The notes under the pieces: model-generated | Seen by the model: only the letters and a program-made list of their open reading frames with translations | Told to the model about the DNA's origin: nothing | Database searches by the model: none | In this document: positions 51,420 through 64,000 of the stretch, piece after piece | Layout: every line of letters begins with the position of its first letter | Numbering within the stretch: the first letter of the stretch is position 1 | DNA from: Alphaproteobacteria bacterium | GTDB lineage: Bacteria > Pseudomonadota > Alphaproteobacteria > Sphingomonadales > Emcibacteraceae | Assembly (NCBI GenBank): GCA_030428615.1 | Contig: JAUIDN010000003.1 | Coordinates: 1 to 64,000 of the forward strand | DNA: 64,000 bases | Reading direction: 5' to 3' | Program-made: the position numbers and the translations under genes

Positions 51420-51496
<77 letters not shown>

Positions 51497-51606
51497 ATTT
51501 TAACCTTTAAAATCAGCACCTTATAATTCTGCCTTTTGCACGAGGAACCAGAAATCAACGTTCTGGCACAATTCTGGCACAGTTGAAAATTTCAAAGGTG
51601 CTAACT

Positions 51607-52647
51607 ATGGCAACTATAAGAGAAAAATCACCCTCCCATTGGCATGTGCAAATTCGCCGACAAGGCTGGCCGTTTCAATCCGCAACGTTTAAAACCAAAG
51701 CCAAAGCGCAAATCTGGGCGCGTAAAATAGAAGCGGATATGGATCAAGGCAGGTTCATTGACACCAGCGGCGCAAGGAATACAACGCTTGCCAACCTTAT
51801 TACTCTGTACATCAGCAACGTAACTGAAAAGCGCCCGAGTAAAACCTCTCGCGTTTCTGAAAGGCTGCGGTTACAAAAATTCTTGCGCGACGAGCATAAA
51901 CTATGCTCATACGCTGTCTTTAATTTATCACCTGATCACTTTGAAGCTTATCGCGACAAGCGATTAAAACACAAAAATAAATCTGGGAAACTAATTGCCC
52001 CAGGTACGGTTAAAAGAGAACTCAATTTATTAAAACGTGTAATTGATTATCGTATGCGTTGGCTGGGCTTGCTGCTTAATCCTGTAAACGCAACAGATGT
52101 TAAAAGGCCAGCAGTAAATGATGAAAGAAACATAAGGCTTTCAAGACAAGAAATTGAAAGGCTTCTATTTTATTGCCGTAATTCACAAAACAAATTACTA
52201 GCACCCATTGTTGAACTTGGCTTTGAGACCGGTGCGCGGCGAGGAAGTCTGTTAAAGCTTGAGTGGGCCGATTTAGATCTCAATAAACGGACCGCCCTTC
52301 TCCGCAGGATTAAAAATAGTCGATCACCAGATAAAATCATAAATCATGTAATGGGCTTAACCCCAAGAGCAGTTGATATTTTAAAATCAATTCCAAAGAT
52401 TGATAAACGGATATTTCCTATGACAGGCAATGCATTACGCAAAGGATTTAATAGAGCGCGGGAAAATGCAGGGCTAACTCATTTTCGCTTTCATGATACA
52501 CGCCATGAATTTATTTCACGGTTATTTGAAGCAGGTTGGGATATGGCTCTTGTGATGAAACAAACAGGCCATAGAGATATAAAATCCGTATTGCGATACA
52601 CAAATGTTTCAACTGACCATTTAACGGATGCACTTGCAAAATTATAG
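51607..52647 (+). CDS. tyrosine-type site-specific integrase
   Basis: 346 residues from ATG 51607 (AAAGGTG upstream; a TTG-initiated extension to 51583 is rejected). N-terminal arm/SAM-like DNA-binding region, then the catalytic domain: Arg in FETGARRGSLLKLEW, HDTRHEF (HxxR), GHRDIKSVLRYTNVS with the His and nucleophilic Tyr. The position just past tRNA-Arg is that of an island integrase. Confidence 0.95.
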   Translation: MATIREKSPSHWHVQIRRQGWPFQSATFKTKAKAQIWARKIEADMDQGRFIDTSGARNTTLANLITLYISNVTEKRPSKTSRVSERLRLQKFLRDEHKLCSYAVFNLSPDHFEAYRDKRLKHKNKSGKLIAPGTVKRELNLLKRVIDYRMRWLGLLLNPVNATDVKRPAVNDERNIRLSRQEIERLLFYCRNSQNKLLAPIVELGFETGARRGSLLKLEWADLDLNKRTALLRRIKNSRSPDKIINHVMGLTPRAVDILKSIPKIDKRIFPMTGNALRKGFNRARENAGLTHFRFHDTRHEFISRLFEAGWDMALVMKQTGHRDIKSVLRYTNVSTDHLTDALAKL

Positions 52648-55201: not shown

Positions 55202-58200
55202 TTATTCTTCTTTCAATTTCAAACTTGATTTTCTCCACAAGAAATAAACCGCTGGAACGACCAATAATGTCAGCAATACAGCGCTTACCATTCCGCCAAC
55301 CATTGGCGCGGCAATGCGGCTCATAACTTCAGAGCCTGTTCCTGATCCATATAGAATAGGTAAAAGTCCAACGATGATTGCTGCAGCCGTCATCATTACG
55401 GGGCGAACCCTCAAGCCCGCGCCGTGAAGAACTGCTTCAAACAGCATCTCCTCGTTCGGTGATGATCCATCTTTCGTGCAGTCATCGATTAATTTGTGAT
55501 ATCCTTGATTTAAATACACCAACATAATGACGCCAATTTCAACAGCGACACCGGCCAGAGCAATAAATCCTACCCCTACTGCGACAGAAAAATTATAGCC
55601 TTCCAAATACATCAACCAAATGCTTCCAATCATCGCGAGAGGCAAGGTCCCCATTATGATTGCCACTTCTATGAAATTTCGGAAATTCATGTAAAGCAAA
55701 ATAACAATGATCGCTAGTGTCAGCGGCACGACATAGGTGAGCTTCTCCTTTGCTCGAAGCATGTATTCATACTGTCCAGACCAGCTTATGGAATAACCAG
55801 CAGGTAGGTCTATTCTTTCAGCAACAATGCGCTGTGCTTCAACGACATAACTACCAACGTCAACACCTTCTATATCGATGAAGGACCAACCATTCAGCCG
55901 CGCGTTCTCACTCTTAATGCCGGGTGGGCCGTCTTCGACTCTGATATCTGCTACGTCAGCCAGAGATATCCGTTGACCCATGGAGGTAACAATGGGCAAT
56001 AGCGAAAGTTGCTCTGGGGAGCTTCTGTAATCTTGAGGGTATCTCAAATTGACAGGATATCTCTCTAGACCTTCGACAGTTTGGGTAACGTTCATTCCCC
56101 CAATCGCTGTTGCAACGACTTGCTGAACATCTGCGATGTTTAAACCATACCGAGCAGCTTGTTCACGCCTTATGTCAACCTTAATATACCGGCCTCCTGC
56201 AACGCGTTCAGAATAGACCGAAGCTGTTCCTGACACATCTTTTACAATTTCCTCCAATTGCTGGCCAATTTGCTGAATTTGCGACAACTCGGGGCCAGAA
56301 ATTTTAATCCCCACGGGAGTTTTAATTCCAGTTGCTAACATATCAATACGCGTTTTAATCGGCATCACCCATGCGTTCGTCAAGCCGGGAAATTTCACTA
56401 AACTATCAAACTCTTTTTTAAGGCTTTCTGTTGTAACGCCTTCCCGCCATTCACTTTGAGGTTTTAACTGGATAAAAGTTTCAATCATTGTCAGAGGCGC
56501 TGGATCTGTGGCGGTTTCCGCCCGACCTACTTTACCAAATACTGTTTGAACTTCAGGAACGGTATAAATAAGTTTATCCGTTTGCTGCAGGAGTTCCCTT
56601 GCTTTACCGATTGAAATGCCGGGGTACGTCGTTGGCATATACATCAGATCTCCTTCATCCAGCGGCGGGATAAATTCACTACCAATCTTATCAAGTGGCC
56701 ACAAACCAATGCCTAATGCCACCACAGCTCCCAAAAGAGTTAACTTGGGGAAATGCAATACAGCTTTAAGCGCTGGCATATAAATCGCGGTCAATATGCG
56801 GTTCACAGGATTTTTATGCTCTGGGAGTATTTTCCCTCTAACAAAATAACCCATTAAAACTGGTACCAATGTAATTGCAAGTGCTGCAGATGCTGCCATG
56901 GCGTAAGTTTTGGTAAAGGCTAGTGGCGAAAACATTCTTCCTTCTTGTGCTTCCAAAGTAAATACAGGCACAAAGCTAACTGTTATTATAAGCAGACTAA
57001 AGAATAATGCTGGCCCGACTTCGCCAGCAGATTCAGCTACAATTTTCCACCTATTTTCATTTGTGATGGGCGTTCGTTCCATATGCTTGTGCATATTTTC
57101 AATCATAACAATAGCACCGTCAATCATTGCACCGATGGCTATCGCTATCCCACCAAGTGACATGATATTGGCGTTTAACCCTTGAAAATACATGACGATA
57201 AAAGCTGTTAGAATGCCAACTGGTAGACTGATAATAGCGACGAGTGAAGATCGCACATGGAATAAAAACACCATACAAACTAGTGCGACTACACCAAACT
57301 CCTCTAAAAGTTTAATCCAAAGGTTATCTACCGCGCGTTCGATCAAGGCACTACGGTCATAAACAGGAACAACCTCAACGCCTTCCGGCAACCCCAACTT
57401 TAGTTGCTCTAATTTATCTTTGACACCATCAATAACGTTTTGTGCGTTTTCACCGAAACGCATAACGATTATTCCGCCGACTGTCTCGCCTTCACCATTT
57501 AATTCGGCGACACCACGGCGCATTTGTGGGCCAATATTAATGTCCGCAACATCCTTGAGTAAAAGAGGCGTTCCATTATCATTGACCCCTAAAGGAATAT
57601 TGGACAAGTCCTGTTCGTTTTGAATATAACCCGTGGCACGAACCATATATTCCGCTTCAGCCATTTCTACGACGGAAGCACCAATCTCCTGATTCCCACG
57701 CTGGATTGCCATCTGGATATGTGAAAGTGGAATACCAAACGCCCGCAGTTTATCAGGGTCTACTTGAACTTGATATTGCTTCACCATACCACCAATTGCT
57801 GTAACTTCAGAAACTCCGGGTACTGTTTGAAGTTCAAATTTTAGAAACCAATCTTGAAGAGAGCGAAGTTCACTTAAATCATGCTGACCGGTCCTATCGA
57901 CAAGGGAGTAGATATAAACCCACCCAACGCCGGTTGCATCAGGCCCCAGTTGCGTTCTCGCGGCGGGTGGAAGTGTTGATGCGACCTGACTTAGATATTC
58001 AAGTACTCGGCTTCGGGCCCAATAAAGATCCGTATCCTCATCAAAAATTATGTAAACATAACTGTCGCCAAAAAACGAATATCCTCGAACTGTGACCGCT
58101 CCGGGAACTGACAACATTGCTGTGGTCAGTGGGTATGTCACCTGATCTTCAACCACTTGCGGCGCTTGTCCTGGGTATGAAGTTTTGATAATCACTTGGA

Positions 58201-58333
58201 CATCAGAGAGGTCTGGCAATGCATCGACCGGTGTATTCTTTACAGAAAACAGACCAATCCCAACTAACATTAAGGTGGCGAGGATAACAAAAAACCTATT
58301 ACCGACCGACCAAAGAATAATGGATTTAATCAT
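55202..58333 (-). CDS. cusA: CusA-type heavy-metal RND efflux pump
   Basis: A 1043-residue HME-RND transporter. DALPDLSDVQVI, GWVYIYSLVD, NIMSLGGIAIAIGAMIDGAIV with the intramembrane acidic residue, and the Met sites around DEGDLMYMPTTYPG, TMIETFIQLKP and RIDMLATGIKTPVGIKI corresponding to the CusA Met triad, favour Cu(I)/Ag(I) over divalent metals. Forms the tripartite CusCBA pump across both membranes. Starts 9 bases after cusB. Confidence 0.95.
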   Translation of the reverse strand: MIKSIILWSVGNRFFVILATLMLVGIGLFSVKNTPVDALPDLSDVQVIIKTSYPGQAPQVVEDQVTYPLTTAMLSVPGAVTVRGYSFFGDSYVYIIFDEDTDLYWARSRVLEYLSQVASTLPPAARTQLGPDATGVGWVYIYSLVDRTGQHDLSELRSLQDWFLKFELQTVPGVSEVTAIGGMVKQYQVQVDPDKLRAFGIPLSHIQMAIQRGNQEIGASVVEMAEAEYMVRATGYIQNEQDLSNIPLGVNDNGTPLLLKDVADINIGPQMRRGVAELNGEGETVGGIIVMRFGENAQNVIDGVKDKLEQLKLGLPEGVEVVPVYDRSALIERAVDNLWIKLLEEFGVVALVCMVFLFHVRSSLVAIISLPVGILTAFIVMYFQGLNANIMSLGGIAIAIGAMIDGAIVMIENMHKHMERTPITNENRWKIVAESAGEVGPALFFSLLIITVSFVPVFTLEAQEGRMFSPLAFTKTYAMAASAALAITLVPVLMGYFVRGKILPEHKNPVNRILTAIYMPALKAVLHFPKLTLLGAVVALGIGLWPLDKIGSEFIPPLDEGDLMYMPTTYPGISIGKARELLQQTDKLIYTVPEVQTVFGKVGRAETATDPAPLTMIETFIQLKPQSEWREGVTTESLKKEFDSLVKFPGLTNAWVMPIKTRIDMLATGIKTPVGIKISGPELSQIQQIGQQLEEIVKDVSGTASVYSERVAGGRYIKVDIRREQAARYGLNIADVQQVVATAIGGMNVTQTVEGLERYPVNLRYPQDYRSSPEQLSLLPIVTSMGQRISLADVADIRVEDGPPGIKSENARLNGWSFIDIEGVDVGSYVVEAQRIVAERIDLPAGYSISWSGQYEYMLRAKEKLTYVVPLTLAIIVILLYMNFRNFIEVAIIMGTLPLAMIGSIWLMYLEGYNFSVAVGVGFIALAGVAVEIGVIMLVYLNQGYHKLIDDCTKDGSSPNEEMLFEAVLHGAGLRVRPVMMTAAAIIVGLLPILYGSGTGSEVMSRIAAPMVGGMVSAVLLTLLVVPAVYFLWRKSSLKLKEE

Positions 58334-58342
58334 AATATATCC

Positions 58343-60352
58343 CTATTCTTTATCTGCTAGTTTGACATGGGTTACTTCAAAAACCCCATCGCGTGGCATT
58401 TCAACGATAAACTGAACAGTGCTGCCCGCTTCCAAAGTTGAAACATCAACAGATGGAGCAAGATTAAAGTCCATTGTCATGCCCATCATGCCAATATTTT
58501 CGATAGTTTTGTGAGTAAAGTTTGCGGTTCGATTTTCAACATTTACACTATTGATCGTCGCATCCGTCCATTTGGCAGGATCTATGACCGCAATGTCAGT
58601 AACTAAAAACTTATTATCTTCTGTAAGAGTTATTTCCATCGGTAATTCCATCCCTTCTAGAAGCGATGCAATATCAACATCTTCAGCTACACCGAAGTCC
58701 ATCGTCATTGCCATCATTGGGATTTCCTTTATTTCGCCATGAGAAACATTCACTTTGCGAAGATCACCATCAATGCTATTGATCTTCCCCGTGGTCCAGC
58801 CGCCTTTCTTTTCTGGCATTTCATCCATATCATGGCCCATTGCCGCATGATCCATTTGACTATGGTCCATTTCTTGCCCGGCGATTCTGGTATCTGTAAT
58901 TTCGTACATCGGGCCTTCGCCTTTGCTCACCTCAAGTTCTAAGGTCATACCTTCGCTTAACGCATTGATGTCGACCGTATCCGCCACCATGAAATTCATG
59001 GTCATTCCCATCATGTCAAAAGCTTCAATTCTTTCATGAGAAAGGTTAATTGTACGTTCTACGATATTAACCTCATTGATAGTGCCTGAAGTCCAGCCGG
59101 AAGTTGGGCCATCATTCATCTGAACGCCATGGTTCATTCGTTTAAAATCTGATGACTTGCTGCTTTCTGAATCCAATAAAAATTGAGCAGAAACGACTAC
59201 CCGTTCACCTGCATTAATACCTGATAGAATTTCGGAGTATTGATCATCGACGCGTCCAACATCAACCTCAACCGATTTAAAACTGCCTTCATCAAGAGCA
59301 AGAACAACCCGGTCATTGTCACCTGTCCTTATTACTGCGTCCTTTGGCACAATTAAACTTTCTTGGTTTTGCTGAGTATCTAGCTCAACTTGGGCAAACA
59401 TATTAGGTTTTAAAACACCACTTTCGTTATCAAAACGCAGTCTAACCTTCATAGTTCGAGTCATAGCGTCCAATGTTGGCTGGACATAATCAACCTCGCC
59501 CATCCATTTTTCACCAGGTAGATAATCAACCGTCATTGAGACGGGAATTCCCTCAGATACATACGCAGCTTGTCTTTCAAAAACTTCCGCTTCAACCCAC
59601 ACTTGGTCGAGATTACCGATAGACATCATGCTATTTCCAGGTTTCACAAAGAAACCCTGCCGTATCATTAAATTGTCGACCACACCTGATTGAGGTGCAT
59701 AGAATGTTACCGTTTGTTGAACCTGCTTTGTTTCTTTTAAAACGGCAATTGCTCTGTTCGGTAATTGCAATGCTCTCAAACGATCTTCTGAAGCTTTGAT
59801 AAGCTGAGCGTTGTTGCGCCCTAGTGCCACTACCAATTCTTCCTGTGCATTTACCAGGGTAGGAGAATATATTTCATAGAGTGGTGCACCTTCTTCTACA
59901 GGGTCACCAGTGGCTTTAACATAGAGACGTTCTATCCAACCCTCAACACGTGGATGAATATGGACTAGCTCATCTTCATCATAATTTACGTAACCAACCG
60001 TCCTTATCACAGAACTCAACGTTTTTCTTTGGGCTGTTGCTGTTCTCACGCCCAAATTATTAACCACATCTGGTGAAATTCGGATGGTACCTGGACCCTC
60101 ATCAGGACCGCCACCAACGCCTTCATCATATACAGGCACAAGCTCCATACCCATCGGCGATAATCCCGGCTCATCACGGCGATAGTTAGCATCCATTGGC
60201 GCAACCCAATAGAGTGGCTTTTTCTCTCCATCATCTGAGTTACCTGCGTCTGAATTAGGATCGAGTATGAAAGTATAAATAAATATGGTTAAGGCGGACC
60301 CTACTACTGCGCCGAGGATAGGTTTAATAAATTTATTGTTGTTAATAGTCAT
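58343..60352 (-). CDS. cusB: CusB-type adaptor with three C-terminal CusF domains
   Basis: 669 residues. A membrane anchor (about 10-30) is followed by a heavy-metal-binding-like segment without cysteines (YWVAPMDANYRRDEPGLSPM). The membrane fusion core lies at about 90-390. Then come three CusF-like modules at about 419-490, 518-588 and 595-665, with a His/Met linker MDHSQMDHAAMGHDMDEM between the first two. Metal ligands by position are His439/Met450/Met452, His538/Met549/Met551 and His614/Met625/Met627. The residue matching CusF Trp44 is Met447, Met546 and Met622. Start overlaps the cusC stop (ATGA). Confidence 0.94.
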   Translation of the reverse strand: MTINNNKFIKPILGAVVGSALTIFIYTFILDPNSDAGNSDDGEKKPLYWVAPMDANYRRDEPGLSPMGMELVPVYDEGVGGGPDEGPGTIRISPDVVNNLGVRTATAQRKTLSSVIRTVGYVNYDEDELVHIHPRVEGWIERLYVKATGDPVEEGAPLYEIYSPTLVNAQEELVVALGRNNAQLIKASEDRLRALQLPNRAIAVLKETKQVQQTVTFYAPQSGVVDNLMIRQGFFVKPGNSMMSIGNLDQVWVEAEVFERQAAYVSEGIPVSMTVDYLPGEKWMGEVDYVQPTLDAMTRTMKVRLRFDNESGVLKPNMFAQVELDTQQNQESLIVPKDAVIRTGDNDRVVLALDEGSFKSVEVDVGRVDDQYSEILSGINAGERVVVSAQFLLDSESSKSSDFKRMNHGVQMNDGPTSGWTSGTINEVNIVERTINLSHERIEAFDMMGMTMNFMVADTVDINALSEGMTLELEVSKGEGPMYEITDTRIAGQEMDHSQMDHAAMGHDMDEMPEKKGGWTTGKINSIDGDLRKVNVSHGEIKEIPMMAMTMDFGVAEDVDIASLLEGMELPMEITLTEDNKFLVTDIAVIDPAKWTDATINSVNVENRTANFTHKTIENIGMMGMTMDFNLAPSVDVSTLEAGSTVQFIVEMPRDGVFEVTHVKLADKE

Positions 60353-61704
60353 TGTATTTCTCCTGCATATTCATCGTCTTCGATCAATGCACCATCGGTA
60401 AAATAGTAATTAAGTTGCGTTATTGTTTTTTGACGCTCTACATCAATATTGAGCGCGTCTATTTGTGCGTTTAGCTCCGCAATCCTCGCTCGAACCACTT
60501 CTGCGAAATCGCCATCGTCATTGGTATATGCAGTAAGCGATGCTTCTGCTTGTTCACTCATCTGCGGAAGGAGTTCATTTTCAAAAAGTGACTTTCTTTC
60601 ATCCAGACGTAAAAGCTGCGACTTTGCTGTATCAAACTCGGCAACTAACTTTCGAAGGAGTTGCCATTTTTCGGTTCTAATTGCTTCACGTCTTGAAATG
60701 GCGGCGCTGTATTCTCTGTCCTGTCTGTTAGCGGTAAATAACGGTACACTTAAAGAAACGCCGACCGTAAGGACATCTGAACGACCATTTCCAAATGGAT
60801 CAGCGCCTCTTCTTCCATAGGCAGCATTTAAACCCCAGGCAGGTTTATATTTTTGCTTTGCAAGGTCAACACCGGCAGCCGTTGCTTCAATATTTTGTTC
60901 TAGTGCTTTCATCATGGGATGATTGCCAATTAAATCGTACAAATCCTCCTCACGAACGATCATTTCATCGTTCACAAGTTCTGGATGGCTGATTAATTGG
61001 TCTGGAAGGTGGTCCGCGATTTCAAAATAACTATCGCCTGTATTCTCTATATTTAGCCATTCAGATAATTTTTCAACAAAACCATCTTTGGTTTGTTCAA
61101 GCATTGTCACGCGGTCATTGAGACGTGTGAGTTCAAGTTGAGCTCTAATAATATCTTGTTGTCTTGTTCTACCCATGGCGGTCGAATAACTAGACGTTGC
61201 GATTTCTGTCAGTTGCTCAAAAAGTGATCTATTTTCTTCGATTAACGCAATACTTTTCTGAGCTTTATATGCATCTAACCAGAGATGACTAACCGTTACC
61301 GCGACCTTTGCATTCCTATCGACCCTTTGATATGGAAAAGCTTCAGCCTGAAGCTCTAGCTGTCGTCTTTTTATGCTAAGGCTTTTGCCTTGCGGAAACA
61401 TTTGAGTTACTCCTAGCCGCACTTGAGTCATCCCTTCTCTACTGAAAGAAAAACTATCGGTTGGCAAATTTGCAAGTGACAGTGACACTTGTGGATCTGG
61501 CAATGAGCCAGCTGCGACGCTCATCGATTTTGTTGCATCTTGCATGTGCTGATTGCCCGCTATCCAGGGGTCATTATCTTGTGCTGTTTTTACCGCTTCT
61601 TCTATAAAAAGCTGACGATTTACTTCTTGTGCGTGAAGCGATTGCTGTGTCGCTGATACTATAAATACTAAAGCGACAGCCCTAAATTTGGTTGCTTTTA
61701 TCAT
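60349..61704 (-). CDS. cusC: CusC/TolC-family outer membrane factor
   Basis: 451 residues from ATG 61704, which has AGGA 9 bases upstream; the frame extends to a TTG at 61710. Signal peptide ends near LHAQE. Two OEP repeats follow: NDPWIAGNQHMQDATKS and SLPDPQVSLSLANLP, then LTVGVSLSVPLFTANRQDREY, typical of metal-efflux TolC homologues. Outer membrane channel of the Cus pump. First gene of the cusCBA-permease operon. Confidence 0.92.
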   Translation of the reverse strand: MIKATKFRAVALVFIVSATQQSLHAQEVNRQLFIEEAVKTAQDNDPWIAGNQHMQDATKSMSVAAGSLPDPQVSLSLANLPTDSFSFSREGMTQVRLGVTQMFPQGKSLSIKRRQLELQAEAFPYQRVDRNAKVAVTVSHLWLDAYKAQKSIALIEENRSLFEQLTEIATSSYSTAMGRTRQQDIIRAQLELTRLNDRVTMLEQTKDGFVEKLSEWLNIENTGDSYFEIADHLPDQLISHPELVNDEMIVREEDLYDLIGNHPMMKALEQNIEATAAGVDLAKQKYKPAWGLNAAYGRRGADPFGNGRSDVLTVGVSLSVPLFTANRQDREYSAAISRREAIRTEKWQLLRKLVAEFDTAKSQLLRLDERKSLFENELLPQMSEQAEASLTAYTNDDGDFAEVVRARIAELNAQIDALNIDVERQKTITQLNYYFTDGALIEDDEYAGEIQ

Positions 61705-61825
61705 GTCCAATGATCCTCATGGTCAAAGCCAAAATGATTGTAAAATAGAAAAATAGTGGGCTAAATACCCGGATATGCGTCGTCAAATAACGGAATTAGT
61801 CGAATTTGGACGGATTCATCCTGTC

Positions 61826-62146
61826 TTATGAATAAATCGGAGGGCGAAAAAGGGAGGTAAGCGACCTAATAACGGTCGTATTTTGAGGTGAAATAATTTT
61901 CTCTGATGAAACATTCTCTGCTTCAAACAGAAAGGATGGACTTACCATAGATGCCATTGAAATACTGCAATCCAATGCGCAATTCAAGTCATCGTTACAG
62001 CAATCCATTTCGCTTTGATCCATGCTACTATGTGCGGTGACCTGCATGTCCATATTGCAAAGATTAATATTGTCCGCAGCAAAAGACTGGCTTGTAAATA
62101 CAAGCAGCATTAGAAGAATCGAAACTATCTTTTGACAATTTAACAT
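61826..62146 (-). CDS. small exported Cys/Met-rich protein in copper operon
   Basis: 106 residues: signal peptide ending FTSQSFA, then a short mature part with CNMDMQ, SSMDQSEMDCCNDD and NCALDCS (five cysteines, many Met and one His) and an RPPIYS C-terminus. Such proteins are commonly found beside copper-efflux genes, and the potential thiol/thioether ligands suggest periplasmic Cu(I) binding. The 256 bases upstream (62147-62402) contain no gene. Confidence 0.75.
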   Translation of the reverse strand: MLNCQKIVSILLMLLVFTSQSFAADNINLCNMDMQVTAHSSMDQSEMDCCNDDLNCALDCSISMASMVSPSFLFEAENVSSEKIISPQNTTVIRSLTSLFRPPIYS

Positions 62147-62402: not shown

Positions 62403-63269
62403 TTAAGAAATCGTAGGGGAATAAAACCCCGTTAATACTGTTGTTCCTGCTACGACAATTGATATTAGAATAATTTCGAGAGTTATGGCTGTTGTAATAT
62501 AGCGAGCGGCATTGGGCTTCCCTTGTTCTAAATCTGGACCAAGCCGAAGTTTATTTAATGCAGCGATGAGCATTAATAGGGAAAATATTGCTATTTTGAT
62601 CAACAAAATCTGGCCGTAGGAATCACGAAGAAAATTCACACCATTCATTAGTACAACACTCATAACTATTCCCGCTACAAATATAAGCGGTACCAACAAT
62701 GTCGCCTTCTTAGAAAAATCATTAATGATTTTTCCAGATCTCTTGCTGACTTCCATTTTGACAACAAAGTAAAGTGGTATTAGCGCTCCAAACCAAAACA
62801 AGACGACAAATAGATGCAACATGAGAAGAGGTGCAAGAATTAATCTATACGGGTTTTCCAATGTGTGCCCCGTTAAGGTAAAGGAAAATGCGACTAAAGA
62901 AACGCCAATAGTCGCCAATATTATGCTGCTTTTTAACGTAATCCTATAAGATGATATTATTGCCGCTAATCCTAAGATCAACATCAGTTTTGCCACACCT
63001 AAATGCGACAATAAAAGCATCTTTTGCAATTCGAAATCTACGATTCCGGCAATAGAACCCGAAAAACGGGCAGCATCTAGAAATAGGTACAGCATGGCAA
63101 GAATTAGGGCGCAAATTGAAGTTATGAATAGCGCCCTTTTTATAAGCTGTTGGGATTTAACCAATTCAAAATAATAAATATTATAGAAAACTGCACCACC
63201 TGCCGACAGCAATACCATCGACAAGGTGATAAATTTTATAATAATCAATGTTGCATCTAAAGTGTTCAT
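62403..63269 (-). CDS. copD: copper resistance membrane protein CopD
   Basis: 288 residues, eight transmembrane helices (PF05425). FELQKMLLLSHLGVAKLMLILG, FTLTGHTLENPYRLILAPLLMLHLFVVLFWFGALIP with conserved intramembrane His residues. Partners CopC in copper uptake or handling at the inner membrane. Twelve bases after copC. Confidence 0.88.
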   Translation of the reverse strand: MNTLDATLIIIKFITLSMVLLSAGGAVFYNIYYFELVKSQQLIKRALFITSICALILAMLYLFLDAARFSGSIAGIVDFELQKMLLLSHLGVAKLMLILGLAAIISSYRITLKSSIILATIGVSLVAFSFTLTGHTLENPYRLILAPLLMLHLFVVLFWFGALIPLYFVVKMEVSKRSGKIINDFSKKATLLVPLIFVAGIVMSVVLMNGVNFLRDSYGQILLIKIAIFSLLMLIAALNKLRLGPDLEQGKPNAARYITTAITLEIILISIVVAGTTVLTGFYSPTIS

Positions 63270-63281
63270 AATATGAGTTTA

Positions 63282-63623
63282 TTATTTTACTGCGAATGAA
63301 ATAGTCCCTGACATTGCGTGCATATCTTTTGAAGCAGCGCGCCATGTAATTGTATATTTTCCAGAAGCTAATTTTGGTAGTGAAATATGAGCCATAGGAG
63401 TCATTTCATTAGGCAGTTCGCCGACTGTAATTTCCTCTCCGCTATCCTTTACTAGTTCAAATCCAGTAATTTTGGCAGGTTCAGATAATGTAAGCATAAC
63501 CATTTTAGGCGCATCAGCCAATACCGCCCCGTCTGCTGGCATAGAGCTCACTAATGAGACGTGAGCAAAACCAGTAGCAGCAGTGAAGCTTAATATAATA
63601 AGTGACAAAAATATCGATTTCAT
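63282..63623 (-). CDS. copC: periplasmic copper-binding protein CopC
   Basis: 113 residues with signal peptide ending TGFA; the mature chain starts HVSLVSSMPADG, so the N-terminal His is a Cu(II) ligand. The C-terminal ASKDMHAMSGTISF holds the second His site (DxHxMSG). PF04234 beta-sandwich. AAGGATCACAC before the ATG. Transcribed with copD. Confidence 0.95.
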   Translation of the reverse strand: MKSIFLSLIILSFTAATGFAHVSLVSSMPADGAVLADAPKMVMLTLSEPAKITGFELVKDSGEEITVGELPNEMTPMAHISLPKLASGKYTITWRAASKDMHAMSGTISFAVK

Positions 63624-63859: not shown

Positions 63860-64000
63860 ATGGGTATGAATGAAAATATTGACAAACAATTGGATCAATA
63901 CTCAAAACTAAAATTTGAGAAGAACCTCGATCATCTTGGGAACGACATTAAATCTAAATTGGTCGCAAACAAAACCAAAAGTTATGGGCTTGTTGGTTTT
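63860..64000 (+). CDS. N-terminus of an unknown protein (partial)
   Basis: Opens at ATG 63860 (CAGG upstream; alternative ATG 63866) and is still open at the window edge after 47 residues. MNENIDKQLDQYSKLKFEKN then LDHLGNDIKSKL is a charged helical segment, followed by a stretch turning hydrophobic (SYGLVGF), as in the cytoplasmic head of an anti-sigma factor or metal-sensor membrane protein. Divergent from copC across 236 bases that show nothing else. The identification is a guess. Confidence 0.45.
   Translation, partial: MGMNENIDKQLDQYSKLKFEKNLDHLGNDIKSKLVANKTKSYGLVGF

Follow-up and report, generated by a model that had tools for sequence, protein, structure and literature searches.

Fusion of a CusF domain to the periplasmic adaptor CusB is known: a 2012 survey, in its accessible text, reports CusB and CusF encoded in one gene in 22 gammaproteobacteria, and holds such a fusion to be at odds with CusF acting as a soluble carrier (PMC3548706). 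The tryptophan that caps the metal site of CusF is termed strictly conserved in the accessible part of a 2023 paper on SilF (PMC10656224). Our literature search, which left most subscription papers beyond its reach, turned up neither a description of CusF modules in tandem nor a report of a CusF W44M variant. A 2009 study of what the CusF tryptophan does reportedly tested W44M.

We analyzed a stretch of 64,000 nucleotides from an alphaproteobacterium of the Emcibacteraceae (hereafter, the window), in which a CusB gene carries three C-terminal CusF modules with Met in place of the capping tryptophan. We consider it likely, with a probability of roughly 0.7, that these modules act as an array of tethered chaperones for Cu(I)/Ag(I), replacing free CusF and feeding CusB and CusA. 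The original prediction, made from the sequence without database searches, had proposed a multi-site metal relay attached to the pump. We infer from the domains, residues and neighboring genes described below that a Cu(I)/Ag(I) chaperone with several sites, tied to the pump, is the likeliest reading of this locus; a relay from module to module is hypothetical.

Domain architecture and metal-site residues of the CusB protein

The core of the CusB open reading frame (Table 1) is recognized by Pfam as HlyD_D23 (PF16576, E = 2.5e-83), together with an HMBD domain (PF19335), and residues 10–407 align to the CusB structure 3h94. M53, M67 and M69 align with Met residues of the N-terminus of E. coli CusB, and the core domains combined with this N-terminal Met site identify the protein as a CusB; the NCBIfam model NF007303 scores 237.9 bits, under its cut-off of 390. 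Three further stretches match PF11604 (CusF_Ec), with E = 1.7e-50 for the whole protein and 1.6e-17, 2.5e-17 and 8.7e-17 for the individual modules, all three of which exceed the curated cut-off of 27 bits (65.0, 64.4 and 62.7 bits). The protein is thus a CusB-CusF fusion of the SilB type, with C-terminal CusF domains within the CusB frame, and Pfam bears out the claim that three such modules are fused to CusB in a single open reading frame. No further PF11604 match (E ≤ 0.001) was found elsewhere in the genome, which comprises 3.39 Mb in 41 contigs and is 98.77% complete; a free CusF may lie in the part of the genome missing from the assembly. The His/Met-rich linker that had been noted is real as well, with His or Met at 8 of the 28 residues (29%) at aa 491–518 between modules 1 and 2; modules 2 and 3 are separated by a very short linker.

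Table 1. Features of the window, with coordinates counted from its first nucleotide.
Feature	Coordinates	Strand	Details
tRNA-Arg(ccg)	51420..51496	+	likely insertion site
Tyrosine-type integrase beside tRNA-Arg	51583..52647	+	PF00589, E 2.8e-25; likely the integrase of an island with the copper genes
CusA RND pump	55202..58333	-	1043 aa; TIGR00914 1255.9 bits, above cut-off
CusB adaptor (periplasmic), three CusF modules at its C-terminus	58343..60352	-	669 aa, ATG start
CusF module 3	58349..58573	-	aa 594-668; H614, M622, M623, M625, M627
CusF module 2	58577..58801	-	aa 518-592; H538, M546, M547, M549, M551
His/Met-rich linker, modules 1-2	58802..58876	-	aa ~493-517; low-confidence stretch of the model at 491-514
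CusF module 1	58877..59101	-	aa 418-492; H439, M447, M448, M450, M452
N-terminal HMBD / CusB metal site	60131..60211	-	aa 48-74; PF19335, alignment to CusB 3h94/3ne5, codons
TolC/CusC-type outer-membrane channel	60349..61710	-	453 aa; PF02321; TIGR01844 below cut-off
CopL-like Met/Cys-rich protein	61826..62146	-	106 aa; NF033807 34.1 bits, below cut-off 40; no Pfam match
CopD copper membrane protein	62403..63269	-	288 aa; PF05425; NF033808 below cut-off
CopC periplasmic copper protein	63282..63623	-	113 aa; PF04234

Each module carries the motif H-x7-M-M-[GA]-M-T-M-[ND]-F, whose site residues we checked codon by codon, and the spacing H-x7-M-M-x-M-T-M equals that of E. coli CusF, H-x7-W-P-x-M-T-M. 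A profile of 54 modules aligned to CusF chains without a gap from His36 through Trp44 to Met49, so that M447, M546 and M622 occupy the place of Trp44. The canonical ligands His36, Met47 and Met49 are present in every module, and the canonical Trp44 cap is replaced by Met in all three; codons and alignment thus agree with both residue assignments of the original prediction. An aromatic residue at the cap column, which would have spoken against that prediction, was looked for in the gap-free alignment, which rules it out, as none stands at this column. Absent from the prediction was a second substitution, in that the place of Pro45 is also taken by Met in all three modules (M448, M547 and M623). 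Across 10 modules of the window's genus, in which 12 of 71 columns are invariant, the five putative site residues never vary, an outcome with a chance of 6e-5 if the invariant columns were placed at random.

A model of module 1, built with the 54 aligned modules, reached a pLDDT of 91.5 and contains five strands. In a fold search covering module 1 alone, the best PDB match was the CusF-Cu(I) structure 2vb2 (TM 0.83/0.85, rmsd 1.8 Å), and the 14 matches with E ≤ 0.001 consisted of CusF, SilF, a related silver chaperone and SilB, so that module 1 is predicted to adopt the CusF barrel fold. In the full-length CusB model, the strands of three barrels are predicted with fair to high confidence, and aa 390–415 and 491–514 with low confidence; the pTM is 0.36, at which the arrangement of the modules is not fixed. 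The cap geometry considered here is, for all modules, a prediction from alignment and fold.

Genes around the pump and the putative island

The minus-strand genes run in the order CopC, CopD, CopL-like, TolC, CusB, CusA, amino-acid permease and short-chain dehydrogenase, and probably form one operon; the TolC/CusC-type gene and cusB share four bases, and the order TolC-CusB-CusA was found in 12 of the 12 related loci chosen for comparison. Among PDB chains, CusA matches its E. coli counterpart best (3t51_A, 1377.7 bits), and the stretches LMYMP, APLTM and RIDML are kept, the Met residues of which we take to be the metal-path residues of the E. coli pump. These stretches and the preserved N-terminal Met residues of CusB form the basis for the assignment of Cu(I)/Ag(I), the export of which by this CusA pump is predicted.

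Divergent from copC, at contig positions 63860–65194, lie three genes, which encode a protein of 110 aa that matches no Pfam family, a CnrX-like protein (Metal_resist) and a sigma factor of the ECF type, presumably a CnrYXH-like arrangement. Relatives of all three adjoin pump genes at another locus (L181), and the Metal_resist/ECF sigma set is a likely regulator of the pump genes. Farther on in the same contig (67683–70001) is the gene of a P-ATPase of the copper type, which has YHS and HMBD domains.

The last 24 bases of the tRNA-Arg gene recur downstream as exact copies at contig positions 129243 and 144806, on the same strand and with no tRNA predicted at either. The copper genes are probably part of an integrated island, about 78 kb long, behind which a second one of about 15.6 kb would follow. 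Phage records contained no match to the CusF array.

The genome also contains a match of 469 bits to NF003767, which we take to be the MsrP model. In E. coli, oxidation of the Met ligands of CusF harms the protein, according to the accessible text of one study (PMC9302797), and MsrPQ is said in the accessible part of another to guard CusF from Met oxidation (PMC10656224). A site that has extra Met would be more affected by such oxidation.

Cap residues across the PF11604 family

The cap residue was surveyed in genomes of the window's own family, order, class and phylum, in plasmids and in related genome loci, for a total of 389 distinct CusF domains. Domains with the His and a cap Trp were classed as Trp even if a Met ligand is lost, and those fitting no class were entered as other (n = 13); fused domains were separated from stand-alone ones by an open frame of at least 450 aa or, for short regions, from the search tables. 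Trp stands at the cap in 224 domains and Met in 90 (76 with a non-Met residue at the second place, 14 Met-Met), alongside 62 domains of an Arg type. The 244 fused domains comprise 152 Trp, 15 Met, 12 Met-Met, 62 Arg-type and 3 other; complete fused modules that keep the His have Trp or Met as the cap, with the exception of one Leu (L233).

The shares of Trp and Met vary between samples. In the class sample, 46 of 385 genomes gave a match, and every listed match is included, taken as 30 loci and then more; one locus gave no domain by profile, and some of the 63 distinct sequences, which divide into 31 Met, 25 Trp and 7 other, are short or odd. Stand-alone domains account for 45 of these (27 Met, 11 Trp, 7 other) and fused ones for 18 (14 Trp, 4 Met). 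In the phylum sample, where 119 of 398 genomes gave a match, part of the matches listed (to near 1e-18) was read, as 26 new loci and 73 regions, and weak Met-Met domains may be under-counted among the resulting 75 stand-alone domains (41 Trp, 33 Met, 1 Met-Met) and 40 fused domains (29 Trp, 4 Met, 5 Arg-type, 2 other). The order sample, also read in part, covers the best 30 loci and all 22 listed matches of two families, along with a minority of the matches of a third; here Trp prevails, both in fused domains (21 Trp, 2 Met-Met, 1 Met and 1 other; n = 25) and in stand-alone ones (16 Trp and 1 Met; n = 17).

The original prediction had named Met as the common state of the subfamily as an outcome that would undermine it. 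Such an outcome is found in the class sample, where Met exceeds Trp, but not among the stand-alone proteins of the phylum, where Met is somewhat rarer, nor among those of the order, and on CusB-fused modules, which prefer Trp, Met is a minority state (27 of 244). The survey rules out the Met cap as something exceptional, given 90 Met domains of 389 and the excess of Met in the class sample, and the novelty claimed for it mostly falls away: as judged from alignment, the putative Met cap is one of two usual family states and no invention of this protein. Conversely, the Trp cap is not a general PF11604 rule, which corrects the usual picture of CusF.

The Met-Met domains have a narrower distribution: 11 belong to the window's genus, where all 11 distinct modules read are of this kind, two are fused domains from another family of the order (L230 and L236), and one is a stand-alone domain (L257). 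Other genera of the window's family have Trp (5 domains). A Met-Met profile search of the 398 phylum genomes scored the window's own modules at 117–128 bits and, next, a Trp module at 81.7 bits; among the matches listed, 27 loci besides the window were read, and Met-Met was not found in them.

With both states common among the 389 domains, Met could be a neutral alternative to Trp in modules that handle metal as an ordinary CusF does, a possibility of some weight, if not the one we expect, and one compatible with a chaperone array. SilF is a case in point, as it binds Cu(I) with water instead of a Trp contact, according to the accessible text (PMC10656224), so that the cap is not in contact in every case. 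A neutral cap sits less easily with the higher share of Trp in fused than in stand-alone domains, seen in the class sample (14 Trp and 4 Met versus 11 and 27; Fisher p = 0.0012, with no correction for descent) and again in the phylum sample (29 and 4 versus 41 and 34; p = 0.0009, likewise uncorrected). Moreover, a change from TGG to ATG takes two base substitutions and one from Pro to Met takes three, and both Met residues are invariant in the 10 aligned modules; the structure of W44A CusF (3e6z) bears Cu(II) by its title, a hint that the cap affects the oxidation state.

Tandem modules, their history and the proposed function

A genome scan for related loci, of which 80 were kept, showed that tandem CusF modules on CusB are widespread. 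The module sets, with W for Trp and R for Arg-type, were W-R (42 loci), W (13), R (11), W-W (6), none (4), W-W-R (3) and a Met-Met pair (1), and in 13 plasmid loci they were W (4), W-R (3), W-W-M-M (3), W-W-R (2) and W-W-W (1). At least two modules are present in 52 of the 80 loci, which rules out several modules per CusB as an exceptional state; arrays with at least three intact sites are a minority. The triplication is therefore not special, with three modules also on an Alteromonas plasmid and four in CusBs of the Roseobacter type. Particular to the window is the all-Met-Met array, found in these samples in its genus only.

In the four-module CusBs, modules 1 and 2 are of the Trp type and modules 3 and 4 are Met-Pro, and in those read, module 1 is without the second Met ligand (e.g. 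MTS, MTT, MET or MDT); beyond the plasmid loci, four additional W-W-M-M proteins were recovered, two of them (L207 and L210) in the class sample and two (L337 and L343) among the loci read from the Met-Met profile search.

Many marine gammaproteobacterial CusBs end in an Arg-type module, which is the sole CusF-like module at 11 of the 80 loci. The motif R-x-x-I-x-K-W-x-R-P-A-A-T-[ML]-D-F replaces the metal site, and in 62 distinct sequences His36 is changed to Arg in 98%, Trp44 to Arg in 98% and Met47 to Ala in 87%. Conservation of this motif suggests a new, non-metal role, and since Arg-type modules are common, not every CusF-like module on a CusB is a metal site. The Arg-type module is perhaps of more interest than the all-Met array.

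Four of the 80 loci are without modules (L129, L167, L179 and L174, the last of which reaches the end of its contig). L129, from a Kordiimonadaceae MAG, has the same pump genes and a CusB 71% identical over aa 3–411, the open reading frame of which stops after the core. Pumps of this kind imply that a pump like this one can do without the array.

Within the window's genus, PF11604 matches were found in 5 of the 13 genomes searched, with three modules in the window and in G021, two in G027, one in G026 and a broken gene in G022. In a FastTree phylogeny of the CusB core (127 rows), the genus forms one group (98 SH-like) beside the module-less L129 (99). In the module tree (70 columns), modules pair by position across species (100/98 for module 1, 100/89 for module 2, and 96/97 for the module 3 group, to which the sole module of G026 belongs); modules 1 and 2 come together (97/89). 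Orthologous modules of the window and G021 are 67–75% identical, compared with 36–41% among the window's own modules, so that the triplication is older than the split between the two.

The first module of G027 has a mixed affinity: over its first 45 residues, 36 match module 1 of G021 versus 23 for module 2, and over its last 24 residues, 20 match module 2 versus 11 for module 1, although its second half is less clear against the window's modules (12 for module 2, 10 for module 1). This pattern points to the two-module form being a chimaera of modules 1 and 2, produced by recombination between modules.

In the module tree, the Met-Met modules of the genus group neither with Trp fused modules nor with free Met-type proteins, and 16 of the 17 sampled stand-alone Met-type sequences lie in a branch apart (100/98). 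Outside the genus, the best scores come mostly from Trp fused modules, plus the Met-Met domain of L236. The Met-Met state could derive either from a Trp fused module changed in place or from a free Met-type CusF. With CusB cores that are similar and bear one, two or three Met-Met modules, the genus is a natural system for questions of both cap and copy number.

An array that varies from one to three modules within a genus, next to pumps that have none, might instead be a periplasmic metal sponge, buffering metal near the pump and delivering it by release and capture, and the His/Met content of the linker (29%, compared with a median of 16% for linkers and tails of 73 relatives) would suit this role. 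We consider a sponge unlikely, because the CusF ligand order is kept and a full CusF fold is predicted for module 1, beyond what a sponge needs, and the His/Met-rich linker is missing from the alignment of a two-module congener (L009). That a single module works while the others drift or act as spacers is very improbable, for although an Arg-type module comes after one or two Trp modules at 45 of the 80 loci, and modules evolve faster than the CusB core (dN to G021 of 0.17–0.28 versus 0.10, with synonymous sites mostly saturated), the window and G021 keep every putative ligand in all three modules.

In the tethered chaperone array that we favor, the three CusF modules, held C-terminally on flexible linkers, would replace free CusF, each binding one Cu(I) or Ag(I) via its His and the residues at the Met47 and Met49 places, and a thioether (M447, M546 or M622, possibly along with the Met at the Pro45 place) would take the role of the tryptophan cap. 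The metal would then pass from the modules to the N-terminal Met site of CusB (M53/M67/M69), on to the Met sites of CusA and out of the cell. CusB of E. coli is hexameric per CusA trimer; if the same stoichiometry holds here, each pump would bear 18 modules. A distinctly tentative extension is that the modules hold a four-coordinate His-Met3 (or His-Met4) site without a cation-pi cap, and that capacity is tuned by module gain and loss via recombination, on a mobile copper island.

With E. coli CusF (2vb2, 2qcp, 1zeq), the modules share the predicted barrel fold and the His36/Met47/Met49 spacing, but they are fused to CusB, occur in three copies and have Met at both the Trp44 and the Pro45 places. 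SilB of Cupriavidus metallidurans (2l55) is also an adaptor with a C-terminal CusF-like domain, of which the accessible text describes one (PMC4446572), whereas the window's CusB has three. Closer in number is the CusB of an Alteromonas macleodii plasmid (L050, NZ_OX359238.1), 47.9% identical to that of the window over 98% of the query, which also has three intact modules and TolC-CusB-CusA neighbors; its modules, however, are all Trp-Pro, and those of the window all Met-Met. The four-module CusBs of Roseobacter-type bacteria and Roseibium (L054, L055, L056, L207 and L210) likewise carry tandem modules, two of them with Met caps, but these proteins have the order W-W-M-M, keep Pro45, and have a core distant in the tree. 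Stand-alone Met-type CusF-like proteins (L060, L061, L062 and L092, for example) share the Met at the Trp44 place, but are unfused and mostly have MP, MG or MD, not MM. The variant is known in kind, and its particular points are the all-Met-Met array and the copy-number series within the genus.
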